64,000 nucleotides of DNA from contig JAKSYS010000229.1 of the NCBI GenBank assembly GCA_022925895.1, forward strand, positions 1-64,000, written 5' to 3'. Shown here piece by piece: positions 1,864 through 24,629 of this stretch (the first letter of the stretch is position 1; each line of letters opens with the position of its first letter). The notes under the pieces were generated by a model that made no database searches, was not told the origin of the DNA, and was given only the letters and a program-made list of their open reading frames with translations. Made by a program: the position numbers and the translations under genes. The DNA is from Fragilaria crotonensis. Taxonomy: Eukaryota > Bacillariophyta > Fragilariophyceae > Fragilariales > Fragilariaceae.

Positions 1864-2550
1864 TGTTGTCGTCAAAGATTCGTATTGGACAGGTGATACG
1901 AGGATGGTCTCTATACTTGTCTTCCGACGGCTGTAGTCTAGTCTATTTAGTTGTGATGCAAGAGCGAAGTCCAAATGATAACTCTTACTCGCACTCTATC
2001 CTTGTCTATTGTCCAATGCTTTGTTCGGTACGGCAAACAGGTGCCAGGTGCCACCTCAGGGCCGCACAGGAGGAAACAATTTTATTTGTAACGTTTATGT
2101 ATGGCTTGTATGGGCAAAACCAGTTTCGACGAAGCTATTCCAATCCAAGTTCAACTTGCTGGAGGATCGAAATCACACGCCCAAAGCCCAAATCCTGTTG
2201 TCAACGGAATTTCAAATCAACCCACAGGTTAAAAGCAGTGGATTCCTTCTCTCTCTACTAGCGTGGGCTTCTGTTCTTCGTTTTTACGAGTCTACTGGAG
2301 TACTGGAGTATGTAGAATGTACAGTGGATAATTTTCACTGTACGCTAGTACATACAGAACTCGACGACAGTAGTCCAGTAATCATGAATAACGAATTACG
2401 ATGATGACTTAACGAAATGACACAAATCCTCCAACCTCAATCCTTCCTACCGGTCAGATCGATTTCTAACACAACGACTTGAGCTCTGACTCTCATCATC
2501 TCTTATCTCTGAGCATTGAAGTCATCAGTGACTGCTGCCTCCTCGAATTG
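1864..2550. other. Intergenic region between divergent genes
   Basis: This holds the presumed shared promoter region of the HAT-repeat gene (leftward) and ALG3 (rightward). I see no convincing coding sequence. A GTAC/CTGGAGTA-rich patch lies around 2285-2355. Confidence 0.5.
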
Positions 2551-3967
2551 ATGACTGTCACTGTAGCACCACCGCAACAATCATCTCAATCGAAATCAAC
2601 ATCTCGCTTGAGCAAGAATTTGTTTAAACTATGGCATCAATTGGCAGAACGCCATTACGATGGACCATTCATTGCGCTCCTATGCCTTGCAGAAGTAGTC
2701 TTCTGTTGGGCAATTATCCGGGTGGTCGCTTACACCGAAATCGACTGGATTGCCTACATGCAAGAAGTTGAAGGGTGGTGGCTTCATGGCGAACATGATT
2801 ATCGATTGCTTCGTGGTGATACTGGACCGCTGGTCTACCCAGCAGGCTTTCTCTACTTCTTTTGTATCCTTCGATACCTTACTGACAACGGAAGAAACAT
2901 ACGCAGAGCTCAATATTTATTTGCAGCCTTTTATCTTGTACAATTGACAATTGTCTTGCTAATCTATACAAGCGTCCTCAGATGTCGAAAACAACGAAGC
3001 GTGGCGTCCATCTGGAGCTGGAGGTTCGCCATGGGAATGCTATGCCTCAGTAAACGGATCCACTCAATTTTCGTCCTTCGATTATTCAACGATGGCATCG
3101 CCATGCTCTTCTTATACGTCTCCATCTATCTATTCATGAAGAATTCCTGGAAGTGGGGATGTTTGTGGTTCTCATTGGGAGTCTCCATCAAGATGAATGT
3201 CTTACTCTTTGCACCGGGTTTGCTCCTGCTACTGTTACAGAGTCAGAGCTCATTGAAAGGAACCATCCTCTGCTTGCTCGTATGTGCGAGCTCGCAACTT
3301 ATTCTTGGAGCGCCGTTTTTGTTGTCCTATCCAGAATCGTATCTGCGCAAGGCGTTTGAACTTGATCGAGTGTTTTTCTACAAGTGGACTGTCAATTTGA
3401 AGGTGAGTGAGGAGCAGAACCTTTTGCGCAGGTCGACCAGTAGTGTTCGTCTATCCTCACCAATTCTTGTCTTTTATTCGTATGCTCCAGTTCCTGTCCG
3501 AGGAGACTTTTCTTAGCAAACCTCTTGCTGTGATACTGCTAGCGCTTCACCTTGGGGCCCTTGCTTACTTTTGCGTCAAATGGCTCAAATCAGCCAGGTC
3601 ACAATCTCAACCTTGCTTGTTCATTGGCAAACCATTGTCGGCTGACTACGTGGTGTATACGATGATAGTGTCCAACTTTGTCGGGGTAGTTTTTGCAAGA
3701 ACGCTGCATTATCAATTTTACTCCTGGTACTTTCATGCTCTGCCTCTGTTTCTATGGATCTCTCCGACCTACCACGTCATCCTTAGGTTATTGCTGTTGG
3801 GTATGGTCGAGTATGCCTTCAACGTCTTTCCTGCTACGCCGACCAGTTCCATGCTCCTGCAAGTGGCTCACCTTTTTATTATCATCGGGATCAAGTCGCC
3901 CGAGGAATTGGAAATGTCCATAATCGACGAAACAACAACAACGGCTGCAGCAAACAAAGGGGATTGA
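2551..3967 (+). CDS. ALG3: Dolichyl-P-Man:Man5GlcNAc2-PP-dolichol alpha-1,3-mannosyltransferase
   Basis: ALG3 adds the first dolichol-phosphate-mannose-derived mannose on the lumenal side of the ER, extending the N-glycan precursor. Exons are 2551-3402 and 3491-3967; the 88-bp intron (GTGAGT...CAG) joins VNLK to FLSEETFLS in phase 0. The ATG at 2551 is the first in frame. Family hallmarks are the lumenal loop with DTGPLVYPAGFLY, the signature KRIHSIFVLRLFND, and FKWTVNLKF-like residues before the intron (here FYKWTVNLKF). Many hydrophobic segments fit a GT-C type multi-pass enzyme. The product is about 442 residues, close to human ALG3 (438). It ends with an acidic/Thr tail rather than an obvious KKXX signal. 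I see no damage. Confidence 0.93.
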
Positions 3968-4854
3968 TACATATCTGGCTGTCTGGCTTATCCGAAAGTA
4001 CGGTTATGAATGCTACATGGCTTGTGTACTGCATTTGTTTAATGCAGCTCTGATTCCAAACCTGCACCCAGAAAAATCGGTCTCGGATGAATAGGTCCGT
4101 TAATTTGCTTTCGTCTTTGTCGTGGAGCCTCACAAAGAATGCACCCTCTACTAGAGAGTTGTTCCAAGATTGCGCCACGTAGCGATTTCGTTGGAAACTG
4201 CCACTGCGTGTTGATAGGAAGCGAATTGAAAAACAGAAAATGAGAGAGTATTGTTGTGAGTCTATATTTCGAAAGCATGGCAAGTGAAGATAGCGTAGCC
4301 TCAATGCCAATATGTGCAGCTACATCCTAGTAACAGTACTCGTATTGCGACCAGAGCAAGAACCTAACTCCATGTATGCATACACTGTATAGGCACTGCA
4401 GTTTTTGATGTATTGAGCTCTATCACGTGAATAGGGTACAAGTATCTGACGTCTGACACGGTTGATGACAGGCGGTTGTGAGTTTTGAAAAACCACCGAT
4501 CCCGATTTTCGCAAGGTGTTTTTTGTAAAAACACCAAAAAACATCTTAAAAACACTAGCGATTTTTACTCGGACAGGTCTATCGTTCTACCATTCAACGC
4601 ATTTGACGTTTGGCCCAAAATTCTACATTGGATGATAGTAATATCACAAGTCAATTGTTCTTTATTACGTTTTAACATCCATATTCAACCTTTTCAATAG
4701 GTCGCAACTGCATATCTGATAATCTGAAGGTGGAGGCGTAGTATCGTTTTGTGATACAGTAAAAAGTATGAACTGGGATGCAGTGGGATGCAGTATACAG
4801 TACTTGGTCATCACGTACGCACTCTTTGAAAAAACACCTTTTTAGCTCGAAAAT

Positions 4855-4888
4855 AAAAACCACCGCCGCCCAAAACGAGGTGGTTTTT
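4855..4888. repeat. Perfect 10-bp hairpin
   Basis: AAAAACCACC (4855-4864) and its exact complement GGTGGTTTTT (4879-4888) flank a 14-nt loop. It sits in the intergenic region, far from either neighbouring stop codon, so a terminator role is unlikely. It may be the core of a decayed foldback element. Confidence 0.55.
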
Positions 4889-5342
4889 AAAATATAAACG
4901 AAAAAACACTCAGGAAAAACACCTGCCTGCCAACCCTGGTTGAGGACATGGCGATGTCACTCGGCTGCGGAGGATAACAAACTGGAACCTGTTTTGTGAA
5001 GCAGCATTCATGGACACAGTGACAGAGATACTCTGGATCTTTCTCGTTTCGAACATACGAGAAGCGTCAGATTTTCGATCCTCAAATTTTGGCAGTGCAC
5101 CATCCGTGGCAGCAGGACGGGATACCACCCGGTACTCAGCACTGGTACAACTCAATCGTCCCCATGACATGATGTCCATGGTCGTCATTTTATGGCCGAC
5201 AGGGTGCATTTGTACCAGACATGCGATCTCATCGTTCGACATCATTCATCAGGTTTATAATTCACACCGACTATTCAATCCCCTCGTACGCCATTTCTTT
5301 CATCATCTCTACTTGTAGTGCGTTGCGAGTTGGACGTTGTAC

Positions 5343-5376
<34 letters not shown>
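5343..5376. repeat. 7-bp tandem repeat (ACTGCAT, ~5 copies)
   Basis: Nearly five uninterrupted copies of a 7-bp unit lie about 220 bp upstream of the kinase ATG. This is a simple minisatellite. Confidence 0.85.
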
Positions 5377-5595
5377 AACCGGAAACTGAAGATTCAGCAC
5401 CGGGGTTGAGAACTGTGAACTGTAGGAGCAGGTAACCTCCCCACTTTCACCAAGAACCTGGTATTGTACTTGACGACTCTGTGTCTCCCACTCGTTGTAT
5501 CTGAAAAAGGACTGATTCTAGCAGAATCATAAGTGCAACATCACCGCAACGTAATACAGCATACAATATACTCTATACTCCGAAAACACAGCATC

Positions 5596-7167
5596 ATGGG
5601 AGCGAAACAATCGGCTCTGACTCTCAGTCCAAGCACAGTAACAACCTCACAAGAAGGGATTGAAATTGACGATGAATTTGATGACAAGGACGATCAACAT
5701 TGTTGCTTGTGTCCCTTTGGCAAACTACAGCCTTATGCCAAGCTCAAATCGTCGATATCCGATCCCATGGGCACTCCGATTCTCACTCCGGTACATGAAC
5801 GGCGGAAGCGAGAACGGTTCTCGGAAGCAGTGCGCAACAGTCCCGGCGAGCACAACGGTCGGCAGGGGGGATTGGAGAAGGAAAATTCATCCCAAGGACT
5901 GTATTCACGCGATTTGTTGATTCCAAACTCAAATTTTGCTGCTGCTGCTGCTGCTGCTTTCTCCCAGCCAACCTCCCCAACACCAACCTCAAGTCTACGA
6001 AGGCAAGGTATGTTGTCTTCTTTGCAATGTCAATGTGTCTCAACATAATGCGCTATGAATTGTTCAAAGCGATCCACTATACATTGTTGCTTACACTCAA
6101 TCTCCCCGAAACGTTTGTGTTTTTCTGATCATGATCATCTGCCCTTTTTCTTTTCTTGACACCAGGACGCGGAACGATTGTTGAATGCCAAGTACGAACT
6201 CCTCGAGGTTCTGGGTGTGGGCGCAACCTCAACAGTTCACCGCTGCACCGATCGCAAAACCTTTCGCGACTATGCCTGTAAGATTGTGGACAAGCGCCAT
6301 ATTTCAGAAAGTTTTCACGGTATGATGGATCAGTTCCATACAGAAATTCAGGCATTGAAATCACTACGGCATGACAACATTATACAATTGTATGATGTGT
6401 TTATATCGGATGAAAAAATCTTTATTGTCATGGAATTGATGTACGGAGGCGAACTCTTTGATTATGTGGTACAAAAGGGTACTTTGACGGAGGAGGAGGC
6501 GTCAGCTATTGTCCGGAAGGTTACGTCGGCCATTGTCTACATGCATTCCAAGAACATTATTCATCGTGACTTGAAACCAGAAAACTTATTGCTCCACCAC
6601 AGACCCAAGACTCCCATGGATTTGGAAGTCAAAATCATTGATTTTGGACTGTCCAAGTGCATGATCGAACCAGTCACGTCCAGTTTCCTGGGAACACGAG
6701 GGTACTTGGCCCCCGAAATGCTACAACGGTTGGAATACTCGAAAGCAGTTGATACCTGGGCTCTGGGCGTCATCGTCTTTGTTCTCCTGTGCGGCTGTTT
6801 GCCCTTTGATGATGATTCCCAAGGAGCAGCTTCCGATGCTTTGCTTCGAGCTCGGTTTGTCCTACGATTTCCCCGTTGGGCGAAGAATCTGTCAGCATCC
6901 GCCAAAGATTTGCTTTCCAAGTTGCTCGATGTTACTCCAGGTTCGCGGTACACTGCCGAGGAGGCCTTGCGTCATCCTTGGGTCACTGGAGAGACAGCTC
7001 CTTCTGATAATGTATTGGAGAGTCCCGGTCGCATCAAGAAATCTCCTGCCGCACGCAAACACCGGCGTGACAACAGCCGAGACTACAATGCTGTTCAACA
7101 TCAACATCACAATCAGGGCACTCTTGTCGCGCCAAAGCGACATTTGGTGCGAAAGACCAGTATTTAG
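5596..7167 (+). CDS. CaMK-type Ser/Thr protein kinase with N-myristoylation signal
   Basis: The first exon (from ATG 5596) encodes MGAKQSA, a classic N-myristoylation start (Gly2, Ser6), then a Ser/Pro-rich region with an acidic patch, a CC-LCPF cysteine cluster and a poly-Ala run. The kinase domain (6166-7010) has glycine loop LGVGATSTV, VAIK-like Lys in YACKIVDK, HRDLKPEN, DFGLSK and the activation/APE segment FLGTRGYLAPEM. This matches CaMK-group kinases and suggests a membrane-tethered signalling kinase. A basic tail follows; no EF-hands are seen. The junction is awkward: the strong donor GTATGT (6008) and acceptor CAG (6163-6165) give an intron that puts exon 1 and exon 2 in different phases. 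A weaker donor at 6037 keeps the frame, or an indel is present. The kinase call is secure; the link to exon 1 is probable. Confidence 0.85.
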
Positions 7168-10059: not shown

Positions 10060-11150
10060 TGGCCTACCCACAGATTGGAGTACATCCTGCGGCAACGTTT
10101 GTACAATTTGTGAGCAGCCTCCCCCAATGGGAAGCTGAATTATTGCATGACATTGACTTGTGCGAAGACCCCTTTACTGTAAGCGATGCACTTGAGTGAC
10201 GGCTGCGTGTGGACAGATAACCAAGGCACTTGTATATGGACGCTTAGCTCCAACTTGGGTGACATAGTTGTACGTGGCATGGGATCAGCTCAGGGAGCCA
10301 AGCAAGGTTGATTCCTACTGCGCGGAAGCATATAGCTAGTAGCTAGCATGATGCTGGCTATGCTTTGCTTTCTTCGTCGCCGGTTGGCAGAGTTCACGAC
10401 CCAACTGGTGGTGCTACCATGGACAGGGATCTTGGCAACGGATAGCCAAGCCTCTTGGATACTATCACGGTCACCACCACACCACGACCATCAAAAGGAG
10501 AACATTGTCGCCCTCAGTACGCAGAACAGAAACCAGCAGTCCTGTTGCACAACTTGATGTGAAGTGGCCGGAGTGGTATTTGCAGAGTAGTATCCTCACG
10601 AAAAGCTTGAACGCTAGCAAGAAGGTGTTAGTACTCTCCAAGCAACATGTGAGGGGCCACCAGGATTGAAAAGTGGCAGGAAACAATATTATATCATTGT
10701 TGCCTTCTGGATTCTGTACAATTTTTTATGGTAATCTAATGGATCCATAATTTTTCACAAATCTCATCTACCTCTGGTGGTGCTTCCTTTGTTGTACCTC
10801 CTGTCAGCCCAGCAGCAGCAGGGTGTGCTATCATCAATGCCCAGCCTGTTGGAGAGAACAAGAACATCTTCAACGAGAATTTCATTAATAACTACGACCT
10901 GGATGCTGAGGGCAACCACGAATCCACCCTCGGCCAGAAAATGGTACAAAACTGTGGTGGACACTTCTCTGTGGAGCATTTTGCTGTAATTAAGGAGCTG
11001 CCATGATAGGGTCATATAGTGCACGCGGCATTGCCGCACTGGACAAGAAAATGAACGTCGGGGGCAAAGATTTCCCTTAAAAGGTTCTTGTTTACTGTTG
11101 TACGTCCATTCAGATGATGGGCAACTAGTACATCTAAGGGCCAAAAATCG
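10060..11150 (+). mobile_element. Decayed retroelement relic (RNase H-like fragment)
   Basis: Reading the plus strand from about 10090 gives a conserved-looking patch with SSLPQWEAELL followed by an SDG...GTCIW...G-MGSAQGA pattern. I associate this with RNase H-like regions of pol genes in diatom and oomycete retroelements. The rest of the stretch is heavily broken and no terminal repeats were found, so the family (LTR or non-LTR) is unresolved. It is an old, non-functional fossil with several breaks. Boundaries are approximate. Confidence 0.35.
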
Positions 11151-11635
11151 AAATAATGCAGTACTTACGAATGCTCAAGTTCGTACAAACTTAAAAAGGT
11201 AGATATTTAGCCGATTTTAGTACATAACCACAATTTTGTTTCCATATTTTTCCACAAGCTCATACATCCGTACTCGTTAATATACGTGTTTGTCTATTTA
11301 TTCAAATTAGTCGTTCTACGTGTTTCTCAACCTATGTACTAATCAGTACCAAATCACGTCTAAGGATTCGGATTGACATTTGAGTTGGTATTTCTGAAGT
11401 CAATACGGATAAATGAGATTTGTGTTTCTTCCTTATGTGTGCGCTCAAACACGTCATCCCTGTTTGTCAGTATGCATGACCAGTTTTCATTGGTTGTCCA
11501 TGAATTAATGTTGATATTGTTAGCCAGTGTTGTGAAAGCAGCCGTTTGATGACACACCCACTTGCAAACACGCAGTGACGCAAACACCACGTTTATTATC
11601 TCTCACAACATAAACAATTCAATCACTCTCAAAAC
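11151..11635. other. 5' flank of the transposase gene
   Basis: A/T-rich, non-coding. It probably includes the left end and promoter of the DNA transposon. I searched by eye for an inverted match to the sequence right of 19505 and found no convincing terminal inverted repeat. Confidence 0.4.
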
Positions 11636-14482
11636 ATGTCAGGATTTGTATGCTACAACCCGCATTGTATGAGCCGTCACAAACTGTTCACAACAGAAAA
11701 GGCATTCACAATCCATTTTCAGCGGTCACCGACATGTTTAGCTTTTCTCCGTCGCGGCCATTCAACAACCACAACACCAGTTGCGCAATATCGCGTTGAC
11801 GCAACCTTTGATGAAAGCGTTTTTACAAGTACCAAACGTCCCAAGCATTTGCGTTGCGAAGTGGTAAATGACTTGTACAATCGTGCAGCTCCATCGTCGT
11901 TGAACGCACTGCCAGCATTGTTGCCACCCGTCATTCATATGACGGAATCACCGTTTGATGATATAAATGACATTCAAAATCTTGTGGATGAACCCAATGA
12001 TATACCTGAATGTCCAACACGTCATGATAGAGTTGCCGCATCACAATTTATGTTTTCTACGGATCAAAAATGGACCATTTCATTGTTAAAGATATTGGAT
12101 GACATAAATGCGCCTGATTATGCGTTTGAATCGGTCTTAAAATGGGCCAGACATGCCCACGCAGATGGGTACTCATTTAATCCCGTCGGTGGGCAATCGC
12201 GATTGAAAAATGTGGATGTTCTGTTTCAATCTGTGACAAACGCACAGAGGCTGTTACCTGCGGTTGTCACTGTGGAGGTGCCGCACGGACCACCGTGCGA
12301 TGTCATCGCTTATGAATTCGCACCGCAATTACTTAACTTGTTGCAAAACCCGTCCATCATGACTGCTGAAAATCTATTGATTGATTTGAACAATCCCTTG
12401 GTACCATATCAGAGCCCTGATGGCAGACTTGGGGATGCGCTTTCTGGGAGTGTGTATCGCGATGCATACCAACGAATGATAACGAATCCGGCACGACAAT
12501 TATTTGTTCCCATTATCCAATGGATCGACCGCACACATGTGACAGGTAATGCCCGATTTTCACTGAAACCATACATGTTCGCGCCAGCTATTTTTAAAGA
12601 GGAGTTTCGTCGTAAGCTACAGGCCTGGGGATATCATGGCTTCCTCCCAAAAGCAAAATTATCATCCGCACAAAATCAAACTAACATGAAACAAGGTGAC
12701 AATGTGCGGAACTATCATGCCCAGTTGGATGCAGTGTTAAGTTCATTTACTTCGGCCGGTCCCTATTTAATGAATGTATCATTGCCAATTGGTCCACAGG
12801 GAATCATGCAAGTGGATGTCGTCACTTGTATTCTGTATGTCATTCAAGACATGCAAGAAGGTGACATGTTGTGTGGTCGATTTGGGTCACATGGAGCAGG
12901 CATTCAGCGACATAGTCGTGCGTGTGATGTCGATCATGAAAATTTGGATAATCCTGAGGTCCAATGTTCTATGCTTTCAGCCCACGATATTGCAGCCATT
13001 GCGCGTGATCCCAACGTGGCAACTCGAAAACGATGGTCACAACATCGTTTGAATAATGTCTTTGATAGCATTCCGATGGCCGACCCAATTCGTGGAATAT
13101 ATGGTGCAACACCGGTTGAAACCATGCATGCGTTTCGTAAAGGCATGATCGAAATGGTCACGTTCTTGATTCTTGAAAATGTCCCTCCCAGCCAGTTGGC
13201 GGCGTTGGACGCCCTTGCAATTCGGTTTCACAATACGCACCGACAAACAATTCGCCGAACGTTTCCTGCAACGGATTTTAGCCAAGGTATCACAAATTTG
13301 ACAAAAATTTCAGCAGCGGAACGTTTGGGTTTGGTATTTTTGTTTGTAATTCTGGCACAATATGATGAAGGATGGCTGATTTTAGAATCCACGTTTGAAA
13401 TGCGGCGAGTAAGAGCCCAAAGTGCTGATAAAAACGCTGCAGCCGAAGAAGCTGCCAACCTTCCTGCTGTGATTTCTGTCTTTGAGGCAATGTTATGTTT
13501 TGATCAATGGCTCAATAAAACCTCATACTGGACCCCGCAGCATCATGCAGAATCCAAAATGGTTGTTCAGAATGCCATCAAAACATTAATGTCCATGTGT
13601 GTAACTGACATTCCACTGTCCAAAAACAAATCGTGGAAGTTTCCAAAGTTTCACGAATTGTTGCATTTACTCGACAATATGGAACGGTTTGGTGCTCCAA
13701 TCAATTATTGTGCGCAACGTCCAGAATCACTGTTAATTCCAGTTGCCAAAAAGCCTGGCCGCCGAGCACAAAAACGTCACAATGGATCTGCTTACGAACT
13801 ACAATCTGCGCAACGCTTGTCGTATTCACTGATGATTAATGCAGTCTATACCAGAATATGGGACACCACAAAAGGTGCCGCTAACGTTCCTGAGAACACC
13901 AATCCTCCGACCAGCACTGGCAAAGCCACTTTTGGAACATTGACATGTGACTTCACAACTGGATATCGGTTGTGTTGGCATACTCAAACCAATGTCTCAT
14001 TGATGCACATTCCCGATACTGTATTGCAGTTCTTGAGTTACCAATTTGGTTCAAAGGTGCATGTGTGCACGGAGCTGAGGCACAACGCATCCACGTATCG
14101 ATGCCATCCATCATTCCAATCTGGAGGTCCTGTTTATGATTGGATGAATGTGAACTTCAAAACCAAAACGTCCAACAGAGTCTCGGTGCATCCGTGCCGT
14201 TTAACTATGGTTGTTGTTACCAACAATCTGCAACCCATTCGACTGGTTGTCCAAAAAGGCTTACACACAACTGGCATCAAATCAGTGCTTCTGACCGAAT
14301 GGTTAATGTCCGACGATTATACCGTTATTGAACCTTCTGATATAGATGGCCCCTGCTTTGCTATTTTGATTAAGGATGATGGCTCTAAAATTTTGCAAAC
14401 GTTGCCTCGCCATTTGTGGGCATCAGAATTTACTGAACCTGTGGACGAGTCAAGCAAATGCTATCTCAAAACAGGGTCATAA
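11636..14482 (+). CDS. DDE-type transposase, CACTA/Plavaka-like
   Basis: An uninterrupted 948-residue frame from ATG 11636. The N-terminus has a C2HC zinc-finger-like pattern (Cys6, Cys11, His27, Cys34) in CYNPHC...HFQRSPTC, as in Plavaka-type transposases, whose N-termini resemble degenerate C2H2 fingers. Around residues 290-345 the run VPIIQWIDRTHVTG...FRRKLQAWGYHGFLP matches the first catalytic-Asp region (Asp near residue 299) and the following 'PY..R...W...GYLP' part of Transposase_21/Plavaka proteins. A later block, RACDVDHENLDNPE..C, then GIYGATPVETMHAFRKGM, fits the downstream conserved core. I could not place the remaining acidic residues with confidence. The KDZ superfamily is the alternative. 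The frame looks whole, unlike its neighbour. Confidence 0.65.
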   Translation: MSGFVCYNPHCMSRHKLFTTEKAFTIHFQRSPTCLAFLRRGHSTTTTPVAQYRVDATFDESVFTSTKRPKHLRCEVVNDLYNRAAPSSLNALPALLPPVIHMTESPFDDINDIQNLVDEPNDIPECPTRHDRVAASQFMFSTDQKWTISLLKILDDINAPDYAFESVLKWARHAHADGYSFNPVGGQSRLKNVDVLFQSVTNAQRLLPAVVTVEVPHGPPCDVIAYEFAPQLLNLLQNPSIMTAENLLIDLNNPLVPYQSPDGRLGDALSGSVYRDAYQRMITNPARQLFVPIIQWIDRTHVTGNARFSLKPYMFAPAIFKEEFRRKLQAWGYHGFLPKAKLSSAQNQTNMKQGDNVRNYHAQLDAVLSSFTSAGPYLMNVSLPIGPQGIMQVDVVTCILYVIQDMQEGDMLCGRFGSHGAGIQRHSRACDVDHENLDNPEVQCSMLSAHDIAAIARDPNVATRKRWSQHRLNNVFDSIPMADPIRGIYGATPVETMHAFRKGMIEMVTFLILENVPPSQLAALDALAIRFHNTHRQTIRRTFPATDFSQGITNLTKISAAERLGLVFLFVILAQYDEGWLILESTFEMRRVRAQSADKNAAAEEAANLPAVISVFEAMLCFDQWLNKTSYWTPQHHAESKMVVQNAIKTLMSMCVTDIPLSKNKSWKFPKFHELLHLLDNMERFGAPINYCAQRPESLLIPVAKKPGRRAQKRHNGSAYELQSAQRLSYSLMINAVYTRIWDTTKGAANVPENTNPPTSTGKATFGTLTCDFTTGYRLCWHTQTNVSLMHIPDTVLQFLSYQFGSKVHVCTELRHNASTYRCHPSFQSGGPVYDWMNVNFKTKTSNRVSVHPCRLTMVVVTNNLQPIRLVVQKGLHTTGIKSVLLTEWLMSDDYTVIEPSDIDGPCFAILIKDDGSKILQTLPRHLWASEFTEPVDESSKCYLKTGS

Positions 14483-14528
14483 TAAAATAAATGTTATACT
14501 TAATTCATGTAAAAGGTTTCAATTTATT
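14481..14528. terminator. Convergent polyadenylation signals
   Basis: AATAAA at 14481-14486 overlaps the transposase stop codon on the plus strand. TTTATT at 14523-14528 is an AATAAA signal for the minus-strand accessory gene, whose frame ends at 14542. The two genes therefore share a compact convergent 3' region. Confidence 0.55.
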
Positions 14529-14541
14529 TCTGTCATCAATG

Positions 14542-17500
14542 TCATTTTTTCAATCCTCTGCTGTCGCTGTCCTTCATATCGAAAAATGTAACCCGCCGGA
14601 ATCCAACAAACTCACTCTTCACCAATGGAGTAGAGGTACAATAATTCAAAGCCTCTTCGCAAAGAGGGAGGGCTTTAACCTCATTCGCATCATACACAAA
14701 TCCTCCATGAATGCAAACGGCATGACAACAGCTACCGTCCGATGCAGTCAGAACACCAAGCAAGAGGTTTCGCGCATCGAGGTCAACTCTCCAATCGAAT
14801 TGTCGAGGCAAACGCCGAATCACTATCCAAGTCGGAAGAATGCTTCGCATGTTTCACAACATTTTCCAAAGCATCGACAACTGCCCCTTTTAAAATTTCT
14901 TCACCGAAATTGTCAATGGTAGATGCCTCGTCGCAAAACCTAGCGAAAACAAAGCTGAAGCAAGGGCCTTCGACACACACAAATCTTTTCCATCAGCTTG
15001 ATTGAAGTGGACAGCAGGCGCCCATAACATTGCAAGTTTGGATGGTGGTGCAAGTGAGATGGTTTGTAATCACCACGGGCACATCCACGAACCCACGTAG
15101 ATCCCCATCTTCAACTCCTTCACAAATGGTTCACCAAATGCCATACTGACAAACTCTTCCTCCAAAGTTGTCTCCTTATTATTTTCCATTCGACCTAACC
15201 ATTTCTCTTTTGAAGTAACAGGCTTTCGAATGACTGACTTTTGCCATTTTGCCTCTTCCTTTTCAAGACGTATTTTCTCATGTTTCTTGATGTTCATTGG
15301 ACTTCTTGCAACCTTAGAAGGTGTGGGTGGTGCCTTTGCTGTGACATTCGGCGTCTGGGAATTGTCTGTTCCAAAGCGAAAGTTTGTCGATTCGCTCCGC
15401 TGGAAGGTCAGCAAATCCAAGCTTCTTTCGCCTCTTGGCATTCGTTACATCCTTCTCATTTATGACCTTCTTTGTTGCTTCATAATCAATCACATGGCGA
15501 ACTTGGGAGGCACATATCGCACACGAACAACTTTATGTTTGGCGATTCTTACTTCAACATCACGTGGAACGTCAGTCCACTTGTCTGTTTGATGCATGTT
15601 GATAATATGTTGAATGTCCACATCTGCATATTCGCTTCGGACCCATTCTTCATCAACTTTTAGTTCTTCTTCAGAGACCACCATTGTTTTTGGATCTGTT
15701 TCGCTTGGTTCTTGATAAACCAAGCGAGCATAAAAGCTGTTGTTTGCTTTTTCAAAGCGGAGCCCCTTAACCATCGTAAGGCGAGTAAACATGAACTCGT
15801 TCGTCAACTCCTTCGTAAACTGAGATCGTTCATTCTTGATACCTTTAATCAACTCACGGATGTATTCTTTCTTGGATTCGGAGCAATCTCGGGCTTTCAT
15901 TTGCTTTGCCCAAAACTCAATCGTTTTCTGGTGATCCTTTTCACTTGACCAGTTCCACTTTTCAAAACTCTCTGCAATAAATTTTGAGAGTTCCGCTTTG
16001 AAACCTTTGTCGATAGTGACAATTGTATCATCTGCAGTCGCTGTAGCATGGTATTTGTGATAGAAGGCCCCAATCGTAGTTGTCGACTGTGTAGAAACCT
16101 TTTGCTGTTTGGCTTCCTCAGTGAGCACGATGTAATCATTGTCGACATCACCATCATCATCATCGCTTTTGAGTCTTCCTTTCTTTCGTTGGGGTACCAC
16201 ATTGTCATCTTCAAACAGAACATCATCAAGATGCAATCGTTTCAACAATTCGCCATCTTTGCGCTTCTTTGTGGGGGTTCGAATGTGAGTTTGATGGGTC
16301 CAAGTTTTGAAGGATCCTCGATCTTCTTGATTGTGTACCCTGGTTCTTCATCTGCCGACTTGTCTTCTTTGTTGGTGTGTCTTCAATTTCGATGTCTGCA
16401 ACGTCGTCTTTTGTTGGTGTGTGGTCGATTCTGATTTCTGCAACAATAGTGTCAGGATCGATTATTGTCAAATCATCAGCAGAGGCTCTTGCGATTTCAT
16501 TTGATTGTGAAGCAACCTGCGTTGCAGCAGCCATCGAAGGCTCTGTCTCTGGCGACATAAAATTGATTTCATTGTCATCAACAGTTTCCCTTAATGCAGC
16601 AGAGGCTTTCGCATCTGGCGACATTAAATTGATTGTCACATTTTCATCCAGATTCATGGATACACCAGCCCCTCTCTTTGCTGGTGATGATAAATCAAAA
16701 GCCTTATCTGCCTTTTCTGCTGGTGAAGATAAATCAACAATGATATTTCTGTCGGGGCTCTGGGAAACATCAATTGCAGATGAATCACCTTGAGCTGCAG
16801 CTTGGTGTCTTTTCTTTTTCTCTTCATCAATTTGTTTGCGCAGTAGGCGAAGTTTTGGCTTGGACAATGTCTGGCGCTTTTTCATTGTGTCGAAATCGGG
16901 CCAAGCAAGTGTACTCTGCTTTGTTTCCAAGTATAATGGATTGACCGAATTGTTCTTGTTCACTCGTTTTGGGAACACCTCATATTGCATAGCAGCCATC
17001 CGATCAAAGAGAACAAACCATTCTTGGCGAAGCATAGTAAGATAATCTGCCAATATCAAGTCGTTGTTTTCCGTCGGGAGTGGTTCAAAAAACCGTCTGT
17101 CAAAGTAGGCAAACCACTCCTTTGTGATGTTATCCTGATGTAGCTCCCAATTCTTCTGAGGACCAAATTGCTCATCGAAATTCATTCGTTCCACTTTTTG
17201 GGTGCAAACATTTCGCAATATAATCCCGACAGCAGCAACAACTCCCACTCCACAGTTCCATCCATCGTCTTGTCGTGGGAGCAAATTTGCTTCTGGGAGA
17301 CGTAAGGCCGGAAAGCTTTTGGTTCCAAGCATATTGCCTTGGGACGTTTTCCAAATGGGAACACCATCTCATAGCCGCACCTTGCGCAGGCATGCTTTCT
17401 TGGTAAACTTTGGTGCTGTATGACAAGTTCAGGAACCAAATGATGCCTGTATCAATGGAGACATCCCGCGTCCCAAACGGATATTTGCTGCAGTATCGGA

Positions 17501-19505
17501 AGAAAAATGGTTTTGGAGAATTGTCTGCATTCTCAATGTCACCAACGTTGTCACGAATGTACCCTGGATTGAAGACAAAAGTAACACTCCAGTGCTCACC
17601 ATCCTCATTTTGAGGGAACACTAATACCTGTTTCGAAAGCAATCCGGGATTTCTCTCGATGATTTCATGCACCACAAAGTCTTGCTGAACTTGTTGTGTA
17701 CGTTTAATCTGTTTCGAACCTGTTCCCAAAATCTTTTGGACCAAGGCTTCGAGTTCCTTTTCATCCATTGATGCATTGTCTTTTTCCAATTGAAGGAGGG
17801 CTTTGTAAGATGCGTGCGCCGCAAAACCTTTCTTCAAGACGCTTCCAAAATAAACAGACAAAATGAAAGTTGCATCTTCATATCTTCCATCACATGTCAA
17901 AATCGAAAGCATCAAGTTTATCTCACCACTCGAAAACCATTGTGTTCCTTCCGATTCACTATGTTGCTTGCGACGGACCAGCGTCATTTCGCCTTTCAAG
18001 AACAACGAATTGGCAGGCAACAAAGGCTCAAGTGGACCAGGCAAGAGTTTGCGCAAAAGCGGTAGTGACATAAATAGATTGTCCGCATCTTTTCGATCGT
18101 AGACGAATCTTCCACCACCTATCAAAAGTGGAGGTGGATACTGGCACCAGAATGGTTGGGTCCTCGGTTCAACATTGACTGTGTCTTCATCATCTTCCTT
18201 GTCCTTGGCGGCATTTGCAGAATTGCGGTAATTCAATTCACCATGGCGCAAATGCATAAGCATTGGGTGCTTTGAATCATTTGTTGAGCGCAAAAAGGAT
18301 GATGGGGTTTGGGATTTCAATGCTGTTTGCAAATGCAAAGGAAGCATTTTAAACCCGTCATCTGCTTCACTTTTGTTCAACTGACGAAAACCAATCATCG
18401 TGTAGAAGTGAAATGCTGATGGTTCTGAACATTGAAGGAACACCTCAATCGTCTTGACATCCTTAATGGATGCACACCGTTTAATAACTTGAACCATCAT
18501 GAACAAACCCACTCCATTGCGGCGCCACGATGTTATCGAAGGCGGATGTGCTGTCAAATGGTGCGTCACTCCCAAGAAAGACACAAATACCGACATTGCT
18601 CCATGATCGTTTGGATCGCGATGCAATTGAAAAGTAACCGCTGACACTGTGATCAGGGATGAGGCATATGGCGTCAGGGATTTCGGTAGAACACCCTTTT
18701 TTGGCAACCCGAAGAGCAAGCATCATGATTGTGATATCTTGTTTCATGGCCCGATCGATTTGTTCTTCCATTGACGGAGAGGGATGGAAAATCTCGGTGT
18801 AAAATTGTCGAGCGCAAGTTAAGAAATTCTTTGGAGCTGTTCCAAAAAGAAATGTTTTCGACGCATTGCGGCCCCAAGAGAACATGGCGAAAATGCCACA
18901 TTTTATTGCCAATGTCTCCAGGCTTGAATATAGCCTCCGCAAACCGAAAGTGTTTGAACCAATTACGGAATGGAGGTAAATTCTGTTCCACAAAGCCGAC
19001 ATCCAACCCACGGATATACGCAGCAATTATGCCGCGCTTCTGTCCATGATTAAGTTGTCCAGCCAACTCATTAATTCCGTCAAACTTATACACCGAAGCT
19101 AATGTTGAAACTTTCGTGGGTGTACTTGGAACAGGAACCACAACATCGACGTCACCTTCAATAAGTTTGTGGATAACCTCAGGAGTGGAAGCGTTGTGCG
19201 GTACTGCCTCACCAGCAGCCTTGGCCATAACCTCAAGTCCTTGCATGGGATCGGCACTTGCAAGATTCGACAATGCCAATGCAGAAGCTGCCAAATCTGC
19301 ATCACCATCAATTCAACAGGAGGCATTTGGCTTGTCTCAGCTCTGGCATTTGCCTCTGAGGACGCGAAACCAAACTATCACTGTTTTCCATCCTACCAAT
19401 CATGAGTGTTGTCTCAGCATTGGTGACTGTTTCTGATGCGGCCGTGGACTCAGCTTCACTATCAACTTCACGAAGCATTTCACTCGTCAAATCTTTCCCA
19501 CTCAT
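14542..19505 (-). CDS. Transposon accessory protein: GNAT + Ulp1-like protease + papain-like module
   Basis: Probably one ~1,600-residue gene, split by several one-base frame changes. From the N-terminus (ATG 19505): an acidic Ser/Thr region; a GNAT acetyltransferase-like block (about 18640-18330) with R-R-N-G-V-G, the acetyl-CoA loop pattern, and FYTMIGFRQL; a Ulp1/C48-like protease block (about 17620-17230) with catalytic-type His in NEDGEHWSV and Cys in RQDDGWNCGVGV; Lys-rich sequence; a run of I-x-L-x-S-P motifs (about 16370-16790) resembling SUMO-interaction motifs; a charged region (15490-16248); and a C-terminal block (about 14990-14590) with Cys in KDLCVSKALASALF, then SCCHAV and FVYDAN, a Cys/His/Asn order like papain-fold peptidases. 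Ulp1 domains deconjugate SUMO-like proteins; here a role in protecting or regulating the transposase is inference. It could also be two genes. Confidence 0.55.
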
Positions 19506-19556
19506 GATGGAGAATCAACAATCGTATGATTTCAATCAGACCTCACAAACTTCAAT

Positions 19557-19988
19557 GACGCCCAATGGCTTGAACGGTCCTTTGCTAAACAAAGGACTAC
19601 TGCACCAACCGAGTAATGTGGGCTTTACCAGTAAGGCACGACGTGTAGGCACACTACTCTTTCGAGCAAGATCCTCGCAGGTGACTGGTGTCCACACACA
19701 AAACCCGAGCTGGTGCAGCAACAGAGAGAAGCAAGGAATGACAGGAACAATAATTGCGTCCTCGCAACAACTGTGGCCAAACAGCACAATGTCCTCCAAA
19801 TCAATCAACAACAATGTACCAGACGTCCAATTTCTTGAACGGTCCTTTGCTAAACAAAAGGACTACTGCACCAACCGAGTAATGTGGGCTTTACCAGTAA
19901 GGCACGACGTGTAGGCACACTACTCTTTCGAGCAAGATCCTCGCAGGTGACTGATGTCCACACACAAAACTCGAGATGGTGCAGCAAC
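19557..19988. repeat. Tandem direct repeat, two ~166-bp copies
   Basis: The segment 19557-19722 recurs at 19822-19988 with a few substitutions and one extra A in a run, separated by 99 bp. It begins immediately upstream of the accessory gene's ATG. The position suggests promoter or subterminal transposon repeats; I see no coding content. Confidence 0.85.
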
Positions 19989-21697
19989 TGAACAATCTTA
20001 TCAATCAATAACGACGACAATGCTTGCCAGCTGAAGTTGTTGGTTGTAAAACTGACAAAACAGATCAAAATTGGAGTGAGTTATTTCGATTGTGATGCAG
20101 CAAAGCAGTTTCCTCTTGGTTGCACAACGGTAAGATCTTGATCAGTACCAGGTACAGTGATAAAGAGTACCTACTGTCAAAGGAACAAGCGCGTAGTAAA
20201 ATACAACACAGTGCTCCTACCACCATGCAGTAGAGGCCACGTGTTTTTGGCGCGTACTACCAGTAAGTACTCACTGTACAAAAACAACAGTGCTGGTACG
20301 ACGATGCCGTAGAAAAGCGTGGAAGTAGAGTTTTTGTACATCCGGGTTACCCTGCGGCAACACACCAAAATTCCCTGATCTCATCCATTCAAAAGAACAA
20401 CAACCTTGTCATCTTCAAAGCCAAAACTCTCACAGATTCATCTCATGACATAAGAGGATGGGATGTTACTTACAGAAACGAATTTGGTGAAGAATTGAGA
20501 AAAGAGTGAATAGAAGTGTGTCAGTTCACTTGAGGATCTGACACTGGATGGAGTTGTGTACCAAAAATGTGTTCGACGCATAACGGTCGTTTAACGTCAT
20601 GTTAACATCGATTTAACGGATAATGTACCGAGAAGGTTTATACTACTTCTTCACACAAACGCAGGTTTTGAGGTGCATTAACTAGCAGGGACCGCAGTGG
20701 TTCGATGCCCGCAGCCCCAAGATCGTCAGTTCCATTTGCGTTCTCGAGGAGCCTTGGCGGTTTGTTTAACAGCAAAAGCAAATTGAATTGCGACATATAT
20801 ATAACGGCACGCCTACAAGACGAGTATCACTATCAACACCGAAACCACACCAAGTAACGATGCATCGAAACACAATTGCAACACAACGGTTGATTCCGTG
20901 ATATAACCGCAGTAGAAAAAACAATGGCAAATACAAAATGAAGAATTTCAAAGCCATTTGCTACGCGAAAAAGCGATGGAACAATAAGCAATCACACGAC
21001 AGCTAACCACCATATACGACAACCGCCAACATATGGAACGACCGGTACAGCAGCAATGTGTTTATCCTATTGTGATGCCGCATCTGCAGAGGCCCACATA
21101 GGTTACACAAAATTGTCTAACAATGAACACGTCTGTATTACGCATTAGCGAGACGGCGAGCAATCAAAGTAAAAGTAAGAACAATACAGTCGTATTGCAG
21201 ACCAGTAGAAGTACCGGCCGAAGTAAAGTACTTACTAAGAACTCAACGATAGTAAAAAGGGCAATGAAAACATTTGATGCAAACTACTAGATTACTTTCA
21301 CGGAAGTAGCGTTGAATCGTGTGAATCCAGTATCTTGTTCTACGTTGAATACAGCGGCAGCACGTTAATTTAATTTACCGTTTTTGTTCTTAGCACGGAA
21401 CCAGTTCACAGTGCCATCAATTTATTACTGAGATTTTAATGCGGAAACAATGTTCAAATTTAAATAATGCGCGGCACGCAATTAAGGTTTGACTTTCAAA
21501 TAAATCGTAAGTCGTAACTTTTGTTTGAACCACAACACGTGTTTTGGTTCACATTTATACATGCAACAAACCACATGTTGTCATACAACATATATCTACG
21601 TTGGATGAAATGATCAATGTTTGAATGAGTTTGCATTAATCGTGGAATTATAAAGACTTACTACAGCACGTTTTACATGAGTTCATAAAACGCAAGT
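19989..21697. other. Gene-free stretch, 1.7 kb
   Basis: A/T-rich with GTAC-rich patches (20140-20300). No supported gene or RNA. It probably contains the right end of the DNA transposon and the left end of the next broken element. Confidence 0.45.
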
Positions 21698-21706
21698 TTG
21701 CTTCAG

Positions 21707-23148
21707 ATGAACGGAATGCATCATCGCGGTCAACTGGACCCATCATCCGTTTTGGATGATGAACTGCCTTCGATACTTACCAAAAACATGTTGTATATGT
21801 CGAGACGAAATGATTGCGCAGTTGCTGAGGCCGTGCAAAGTGATCAAAAAGTACTATATCATCAACAACAACACCAAGTAACGCCGATCATGACTGGTTA
21901 TTCTCCCATGCCATCAATGCGAGACGGCGGAGAAACAGAGCGTGCGTTAATGCCTGGAAATGTTGCAATGGTTCCTCCTCATCCTCTTCCGCTTAACATG
22001 CAGCTTCAAAACACAATTGCGTCGCAACGCATGATGGTGAAAGAGTGTGTCAAAACAAAGTTGTTCAGTCGTCTCAAATTTTTAAAAAGACTTGCATGGT
22101 TTATATGATTTAAGACGTGGCACCGTTTGTTCGATGATTGTTGCTAATTGCAATGTAGCGACAGAAGACGTTGATGAATACTGGTGGGCAGACATGCGTA
22201 AACTTGTTGTTTGTACTCACACAGATCGTCGCAACAACGTCATCAAAAACATGCGCTTAAGATTCAGAGGTCGTACAATTTTATGAATGGCTCGAGTGCA
22301 ATCATATGACTAACGTTTGGTTTTGTTGTGTCAACGCAGACGGCATGTGTGGTAAGATACCGCACTTTAAAGTCAACAATGGTCAAAATGCCGATATGGA
22401 CTACATGTTAGCTATGCGAGACAATTTGGTTCATTATGTTCATTTAATTGATATCTATGCGCCTTGCATTGTGGGACACAGTAATTGGAATGACAAGGCT
22501 AACATGATGAGTTATTGTCGTTCCGATGCTTGTGTTTTCAATGAATATGTGTTCTCGTTAAGCGAAGCCTTTATGCTTCTTGTGTTACTAAATTACACAG
22601 AGACATGGATGTCTGAATTGGCATTGGAACAATCAAAGGTATGACGATAAAGTGCAATGTTTTGATTTTGTTCGATTGCCGTGCTAACACATTGCTATAA
22701 ATATGGCCGATACTTCGTTACAGATTCAAGCACATGTTAACGCTGTTGCGGGTCAGGTCCCGCGATTGTGGTAAGTTCTTGATTGCTGCGTGACAATATC
22801 GCAAGCATGCTACAAAGCTAACACTTGGTGCAATGGTAGGCACCAAAGTATACATTGTCACGAAAACAACGCAACGATACTAATGGTGTAGCTGGGATTG
22901 GATGGACTGAAGATGGCATGAATAAGTTTAATGAGCTCTACGATTCCGTGAAAGAAGACAGGATTTCGCGTGGAGTGATGTTTAATAATCAATTGCTGAA
23001 TGTTTTTTTGGAGCGCCAACGTGTTGTGAAACCAAATCCACGACGTGCAAACAACCGTAAGCGCAAAGCGATGCCACGAGATGATATGGGATGTATTGAC
23101 ACCGTGCTGTGCACAAATGAAAATCCAGACTGCATTGTGCCTTTATAA
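21707..23148 (+). pseudogene. Broken transposon-associated gene of unknown function
   Basis: Three consecutive frames (from ATG 21707, 22092-22286, about 22260-22638) join into protein-like text, and a 201-bp GTATGA...TAG intron (22639-22839) links in phase 0 to a last exon at 22840-23148. Recognisable blocks are KLFSRLKFLK, then DEYWW-ADMRK and RRNNVIKNMRLRFRG, then FSLSEAFMLLVLLNYTETWM, and after the intron GWTEDGMNKFNELYDSVKEDR and a basic tail. I recall this block order from many unannotated diatom proteins linked to repeats, but I know no function. There are two frame changes, near 22090 and 22265, and the true start may be in an upstream exon (a CTTCAG acceptor-like site precedes the ATG). 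Confidence 0.45.
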
Positions 23149-24629
23149 TGTGATTATTTTAATATTGATTAAGATGCAGATATTTACCACACACCACTTC
23201 ATAAATAGACAGTACGATACAACATAATCAGGCGGTGCTAAGTAAAGGAATATGAAATGCAAAATAAAGGATTAACTAGCGACGAAAGATCAGGAGTACG
23301 CCTGATTAGATTACGTTGTTTCGTGAGAAGAAACTTAGGATTCCGTATTCTAAATTATACCGGAATCCATCAATTAGAACTCGGGTGTATCAAAGAGTAT
23401 TTTGTTGGATTCCGAATTCTGGACTTCGGAACATGTGCATACAAAAGTACGGAATACGAAAAAAAAACTAGTACGTGAACAATAATGTGGCATTATTTTG
23501 TACGGATCTATGCATAATTTAATTCGTATAAATCCAAACAAAAAAATAGGGATATGTGACACGAATTCAGGTCTTGCTTTTTAGATGTAGTAGTACATTG
23601 GTAACTTCCACCCAACCAATAATGGCCCAGTTCTCTTTTTGTGTCTAGCTCCCATTGTTGTTATGTTTGTGTTGTGGCAAAAAAGGTTATTGCGCTCCAA
23701 TCCATCATCAGTTGGCATATTGTCATTGATTCTACTCCACCAGACCCGCAGTGCCATTCCATGTATTGCCCTATGTGTTTCCAAACCTGTTCTTTGTCAA
23801 TCTTCCTCGACTACACCATGGATCCAACCATCTCTTGGACTCCAACAACAAGTTGTGAACAAGAATACAATAAGCATGCGGTGATGAAAGTCTTGTCGAC
23901 GGTCGATTGTTAACGCAAGCTCTTGAAGTTGTTCTTGAGAAAATTGAAGCATGCCATTAATATCCCGAAGACTCCTTTAATGTCTTTCCATAGTACAGAC
24001 TCTAGCTACCTTTCCACTCCATTTCATAACTGCACTTTCCAGGTTCCTGCCAATGCTAACTTGAAACAATGTGGCACCATTACCAAGAATAGACAAGAAA
24101 ACACCAAGTACCTTGCTGAGCTTTCCAGCTGCAACTTTGTCAGGAGGCATCCACTATGGCCACCACCTAGCTAGTCATTGACGTTCTTGCTGATGAAACA
24201 ATAAGATCATAAGGACCTTGGAACAAGCTTTGAAACCTCTTTGCATGTCTTCTGTGAGATTCCTTGGGGTAAACTGCTCGGAGTTTTGACTTTTTTGGGA
24301 GAAGATAATCCTCGCGGCCACGGCCGCTGGGATGGGGTACACAGTTGTGGCCGACCGGCCACGACACGGTGACAACCCTATAATTAGTTCATGTTTTATT
24401 TTATTTTATTTGTATTGTTTGTGTTGGGCCGGCCCTTAAGATTAAAGCTTCCGAGGCCCAGATCTTGGAATAAACTTCGTTCCCCGTATTTTACCGCACA
24501 CAGACTCTGAGCAATTGTTGGTGGATTCAACACCAGGAAGTCATGACGGGTCGATGTCCCAATGCGATCCAAATCACATCAGCACGGTATTGGGGTTTAG
24601 TTGTATCTGTCTGGTACTCAAAGTTCCAG

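Follow-up and report, generated by a model that had tools for sequence, protein, structure and literature searches.

A Plavaka-type transposon in the diatom Fragilaria crotonensis with a convergent partner gene predicted to join an acetyltransferase to two cysteine-peptidase-like blocks

DNA transposons that carry a single counter-mark gene (TET/JBP, VANC, Ulp1, or OTU) are known from several settings. Fungal PlavakaB elements (CMCT clade) have the termini CATCA..TGATG and a target-site duplication (TSD) of 2 or 3 bp, and some of them include a TET/JBP accessory gene (PMC12730594). Mutator/VANDAL elements such as Kaonashi/KIU carry a Ulp1 domain on an accessory gene, and anti-silencing is reported for the VANC family (PMC13317346). 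In Ginger1, an OTU or Ulp1 domain is fused to the C terminus of the transposase (PMC2836005), and some CryptonF and CryptonS elements of oomycetes and of a diatom encode a C48 peptidase (PMC3212892). Here we describe a Plavaka-type element of ~12.46 kb in a stretch of 64,000 nucleotides (hereafter the window) of Fragilaria crotonensis (assembly GCA_022925895.1, contig JAKSYS010000229.1, positions 1 to 64,000). The element spans positions 11131-23587 and contains both a transposase gene and, on the minus strand, a partner gene of ~1,600 codons. The domain order of the partner is GNAT, Ulp1/C48-like, charged linker, conserved zone, and C-terminal cysteine-peptidase-like block. The element, its ends, the pairing of the two genes, purifying selection on the partner, and the GNAT assignment are established by computation.

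Our element resembles fungal PlavakaB in its Plavaka transposase, in ends that start with CATC, in a 2-bp TSD, and in an accessory gene for a putative mark enzyme (a DNA-mark enzyme, TET/JBP, in the fungi), but differs in its diatom host and in an accessory gene made of GNAT, C48-like, and second peptidase-like blocks (PMC12730594). Specifically, CATC..GATG agrees between the ends of the two, whereas the fifth base deviates (CATCTAA here). TET/JBP was absent from the Pfam scans of this element's frames, which were the sole search made for it. With Kaonashi/KIU it shares a Ulp1-type domain on the accessory gene of a DNA transposon, whereas the GNAT and second peptidase blocks are unmentioned in the available account of those elements (PMC13317346). 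The tie between a ubiquitin/SUMO-type cysteine peptidase and a DDE transposase is shared with Ginger1, where it takes the form of a transposase fusion rather than of a separate, convergent three-module gene (PMC2836005). CryptonF and CryptonS are likewise stramenopile transposons of which some members have an extra C48 protein, but they use a tyrosine recombinase, and neither an acetyltransferase nor a second peptidase is mentioned in the accessible description (PMC3212892). A reading of this DNA made earlier from its letters alone (the sequence-only reading) had known no account of a GNAT, Ulp1-like, and peptidase-like combination, and our literature search agrees with it. While Ulp1 or OTU on transposons is already known, neither a three-module partner nor a diatom Plavaka was found described, judging mostly by titles and abstract openings with few subscription papers covered, and nothing that combined Plavaka with Ulp1 was found.

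The ends of the element were read from its copies. The core of the left terminal inverted repeat (CATCTAA, 11131-11137, plus strand) directly follows a TSD of TA, and similarity among copies is lost at 11124-11131. The right core (CATCTAA in minus-strand reading, 23581-23587) is directly followed by TA, with similarity lost at 23587-23589 in the three copies fetched for that end, so that CATCTAA is an inverted repeat present at both ends. The partner gene is transposon-borne, as had been proposed. Seven copies in the 62.1-Mb assembly (881 contigs), the window copy included, are 98-100% identical over the partner region, and further, more diverged copies exist. Flanking sequence differs among the five of these seven that were read at their flanks. 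Where both ends were read, three of five copies have a 2-bp TSD (TA, TA, and AT); the flanks of the remaining two (C527 and C620) mismatch reciprocally (TA/AG vs. AG/TA), which suggests that their halves were exchanged (cross-joined) by assembly or recombination. Near-identical copies, some with an intact TSD, indicate that the element may still move, and transposon escape from silencing may thus be directly testable in stramenopiles.

The transposase had been called intact, and it lies in one open frame (11579-14482, plus strand; first Met at 11636) that matches the Plavaka family of Pfam (PF18759) over the cut-off (E 9.2e-12; 45.3 bits vs. a cut-off of 26.3). D317 and D424/D429 are invariant in all nine aligned transposases, and FHEL[LK]H and RPE in the seven rows that reach them. 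We assigned the motif places (two Asp, then H(3-4)H and Glu) by our own reading to the D of WIDRT (12521-12535), the D of IQDMQEGD (12842-12865), HxxxH (13649-13666), and the E of RPES (13718-13735), all on the plus strand. For the C(2)C motif that follows the second Asp, the place that we read for it shows CxxC in four of nine rows, and Ser replaces the first Cys in the row of the window. The N terminus can be read as a putative Cys/His finger.

The partner gene, on the minus strand, starts with a Met at 19505 and has its stop at 14542, so that the two genes are convergent and 59 bp apart; in the sister copy on C106 (L002) it ends ~20 bp past 14542. In the window copy it is split into at least six pieces in differing frames. 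When set against the majority of the seven near-identical copies, this copy differs privately by 3 substitutions and by 17 indels, of which 12 are in homopolymers. Because private indels far exceed substitutions and fall mostly in homopolymers, the frame breaks of this copy are most simply put down to errors in the reads or the assembly, and decay was rejected as their source. The L007 copy, with 25 substitutions and 56 indels, may be older or of poorer sequence. The claim that the blocks form one gene is upheld by frames that bridge them: of 10 copies examined, 7 have GNAT and the C48-like block in a common frame (of as many as 1350 codons, and in one case extending to the zone behind the linker), 4 have this zone and the C-terminal block in one, and one further copy has the C48-like block and the zone in one. 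Such frames make separate genes unlikely; the whole gene in a single frame was found in none of the copies examined. The zone itself (SSEKDHQKTIE ... PRDVEV, 15550-15948, minus strand) had no significant family match. The order of the motifs is conserved in relatives down to ~35% amino-acid identity. This recurrence, together with a ratio of nonsynonymous to synonymous substitution rates (dN/dS) of at most 0.53, means that the motifs earlier named in the ~5-kb opposite-strand coding stretch are present as more than chance.

To count pairings, we used searches with two transposases, two GNAT-C48 proteins, and one C-terminal block; the best 47 of 640 and 66 of 542 candidates were scored for the transposases, 41 of 206 and 52 of 225 for GNAT-C48, and 90 of 159 for the C-terminal block, and the resulting place counts omit many minor matches judged by eye to fall at places already counted. 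A convergent C-terminal block was present within 4 kb at 53 of 66 transposase places, and a C-terminal or GNAT/C48 block (within 9 kb) at 58. Seen from the partner side, 53 of 68 C-terminal places had a convergent transposase and 15 had none, while, of 54 GNAT/C48 places, 45 were followed on their own strand by the C-terminal block and 4 had neither this block nor a convergent transposase. No counted place had a transposase and C-terminal block within 6 kb in a non-convergent arrangement. The chance expectation for one site is ~0.002, and the possibility of chance neighbours was rejected on these counts; an earlier count from fewer searches was 38 of 41. The blocks are thus co-inherited with the transposase, as the sequence-only reading required, and are not unrelated neighbours of it.

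The transposase and the partner gene diverge together. Over five subfamilies, the distances between transposases are correlated with those between GNAT-C48 parts (r 0.90, a value attained among 120 label permutations by the true labelling only) and with those between C-terminal blocks (r 0.86, attained by 4 of 120). With regard to selection, dN/dS was estimated by the method of Nei and Gojobori, which gives no value for the many distant pairs that are saturated at synonymous sites; every computable pair was at or below 0.53, indicating purifying selection on all three blocks. For GNAT, the values were 0.15 (L008-L047) and 0.18 (L043-L044), and 0.30-0.53 in more distant pairs whose synonymous divergence (dS) is near or above 2. 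For the C48-like block they were 0.25 (L008-L039) and 0.26 (L043-L044), and two pairs whose dS is near 3 gave 0.05 and 0.21. For the C-terminal block they were 0.07 and 0.09 (L039 with L047 and with L040, respectively), and 0.10-0.24 in more distant pairs.

The best-supported of the three assignments is that of a predicted GNAT acetyltransferase, which the sequence-only reading had proposed from an acetyl-CoA-loop pattern and which profile searches bear out. Its core lies at 18330-18656 (minus strand), with WRRxGxG (WRRNGVG in the window) at 18501-18530 and FYxxxGF at 18375-18407. Pfam PF13673 matched over the cut-off in the window (E 3.9e-5; stretch 18330-18530) and in L008 (E 3e-5), and below it in three more diverged copies, and one other copy matched only a different GNAT model, below its cut-off. 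A six-sequence profile of the block found N-alpha-acetyltransferase 50 (NAA50) in the PDB (E 2.9e-5), and L043 matched a PHROG acetyltransferase family (E 0.017). The GNAT motifs RRxGxG (acetyl-CoA loop) and FYxxxGF are invariant in six of six copies. AlphaFold models made from the window letters without relatives were too poor for use (mean pLDDT 39.5 for the GNAT run and 34.0 for the other).

The second block (16931-17657, minus strand) is probably Ulp1/C48-like. It contains GEHWSVTFVFN (17568-17600), FFRYCS (17487-17507), and PRQDDGWNCG (17249-17284), and the window copy has a frame shift between its His and Cys halves. HW, FFRYCS, Q-x-D, and C are invariant in seven of seven copies, with Q140 six residues ahead of C146. 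When aligned by hhalign with eight ordinary C48 domains taken from this genome (A6), the block gave a probability of 29.5 (E 5.7e-4) on the Cys block, compared with a probability of 0.1 in three control comparisons (A5-A6, A3-A6, and A4-A5), and its score there exceeds those of all 200 column shuffles. The match of L045 to C48, which is below the cut-off, covers profile positions 85-204, and a weak Pfam match over the His half was seen in two copies. As a separate observation, frames at two of the ordinary C48 places (L049 and L051) carry an additional Cys/His tail, presumably of the type found in Mutator-type elements.

The third block (14584-15012, minus strand) can be read at the level of motifs as a putative papain-like cysteine peptidase. 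Papain-like (clan CA) peptidases have the catalytic order Q, C, H, N/D. In our block, the Q lies in VHFNQ (14998-15012), the Cys in GKDLC (14977-14991), and the HAV...DAN stretch reads HAVCIHGGFVYDAN (14683-14724, minus strand); Q77, C84, H170, D181, and N183 are invariant in eight of eight copies. In the window copy, this block is interrupted by frame breaks.

How such a protein might serve the element can be suggested by analogy with the VANC (and Ulp1-bearing VANC), Ulp1, OTU, or TET/JBP genes that are thought to aid other transposons. We infer that the partner protein would be brought to the element or to its transposase, where it would remove SUMO/ubiquitin-type marks while acetylating proteins nearby; as a result, the element may escape silencing, or the transposition complex may survive. 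We give a probability of roughly 0.45 to the joint reading that this is a PlavakaB-type DNA transposon, seemingly autonomous and active in recent times, which has a stable two-gene core and whose partner works by this mechanism. It is possible, if doubtful, that the partner is a multi-enzyme editor that both writes (acetyltransferase) and erases (a SUMO/ubiquitin-like peptidase with Cys in place of the acid, and a second, undescribed cysteine peptidase family), thereby lifting silencing at the element. If true, this writer/eraser partner would be a transposon accessory gene of a new class and bring with it a new peptidase family. Set against the single-gene counter-mark transposons, an acetyltransferase joined to two peptidase-like parts, in a conserved fusion kept through deep divergence in a diatom, points to a richer counter-defence.

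Several of our results weigh against this reading. Some concern the C48-like block, in which the position of the catalytic acid holds an invariant Cys (FRYCS) in seven of seven copies, and no Asp/Glu between His and Gln is invariant among these seven; for this reason we call the block C48-like and not C48. Pfam PF02902 (C48) matched three of eight copies, all below the cut-off (best E 0.017), and of 63 C48 matches in a scan of the whole genome (59 over the cut-off), none was at a partner locus. The profile of the block found only unrelated weak matches in the PDB (best E 0.11). When its His half was compared with ordinary C48 domains by hhalign, 200 of 200 shuffles reached its score; since this half gives no signal, the C48 reading comes from the Cys block, the weak Pfam matches, and the motif seen by eye. 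The Ulp1-like module of the sequence-only reading is accordingly kept as probable on its Cys block and motif, with the Pfam cut-off missed in all eight copies and the usual acid absent. Its papain-like module keeps the invariant Q-C-H-D/N order and gains no match, since none of eight members matched Pfam and the PDB gave nothing meaningful (the sole match was a nanobody, E 0.96). On the side of the pairing, 8 of 66 transposase places had no partner block, so either the pairing has exceptions or the copies in question are fragmentary. Deep nodes disagree among the three small trees, dS is saturated in many comparisons between subfamilies, and dN/dS is 0.39 in the close C-terminal pair L040-L047. 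The case is also purely computational.

Among the alternatives, the one that survives best, though we consider it rather unlikely, is that the transposase is the main target of the partner, which would remove SUMO or ubiquitin from it or acetylate it, so that the transposition complex is stabilised or switched and host silencing is unaffected. The tight convergent pairing and the co-divergence are what would be expected of a protein pair, and Ulp1/OTU has been suggested to act in Ginger1 transposition itself (PMC2836005). However, linkage in one mobile element would by itself also yield co-divergence. A quite improbable option is that GNAT is the sole enzyme and that the C48-like and C-terminal blocks are non-catalytic readers of ubiquitin or SUMO, which would make the protein a scaffold or recruiter. 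The missing acid makes a non-catalytic reader role possible for the C48-like part, particularly as ordinary C48 domains of the same genome have Asp at this position in eight of eight cases, but a mere binder would not need the Cys, His, and Gln that are invariant in the C48-like block or the Q, C, H, D, and N that are invariant in the C-terminal one. Polyprotein-like self-processing, in which the peptidase-like domains would cut the partner into GNAT and other parts, is very improbable: two cysteine-peptidase-like domains do lie on either side of the long charged linker of an apparently single gene, but nothing in the data demands such cleavage, and cut sites were not searched for. That the blocks are captured host genes useless to the element, or unrelated neighbours, is hardly tenable. 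Plant transposons do often capture genes (PMC13317346), but here the order and orientation of the blocks are constant at tens of loci, selection on them is purifying, and they share an old divergence with the transposase.

Outside the two-gene core, a direct repeat of ~170 bp (19557-19725 and 19822-19991) lies immediately upstream of the partner gene. To judge by BLAST pieces, C106 and C874 carry a single unit of it. The broken remains of a third gene are found at 21689-23148 (plus strand) and recur near Plavaka loci; Pfam gave nothing significant for them. Relatives of this third gene, many of which are weak, were located at 82 genomic places; with one coordinate per place taken as the Plavaka anchor, 53 of the 82 have such an anchor no more than 12 kb away. 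The start of another, diverged Plavaka transposase (L053, 2631-2978) lies ~200 bp past the right end of the C106 copy.

Searches of viral contigs with the GNAT, C48-like, and C-terminal alignments gave no relatives, and neither did a search of other genome contigs with the C-terminal alignment. The transposase search of viral contigs gave one match, IMG/VR contig L052, to which the GNAT-C48 protein was unmatched. At 2212-7052, this contig has a DDE_Tnp_1_7 transposase (presumably of piggyBac type) and a Plavaka-like frame that runs into phage-like genes in one reading frame; it is probably an assembly chimera with phage genes. With regard to silicon transporters, which bear out the diatom host supposed in the sequence-only reading, the genome gave 19 matches (18 over the cut-off), whereas 1 of 14 control genomes had a match and none had one over the cut-off; at one place (G000:C97:29749-33762), three tandem silicon-transporter domains lie in a single open frame of 1456 amino acids.

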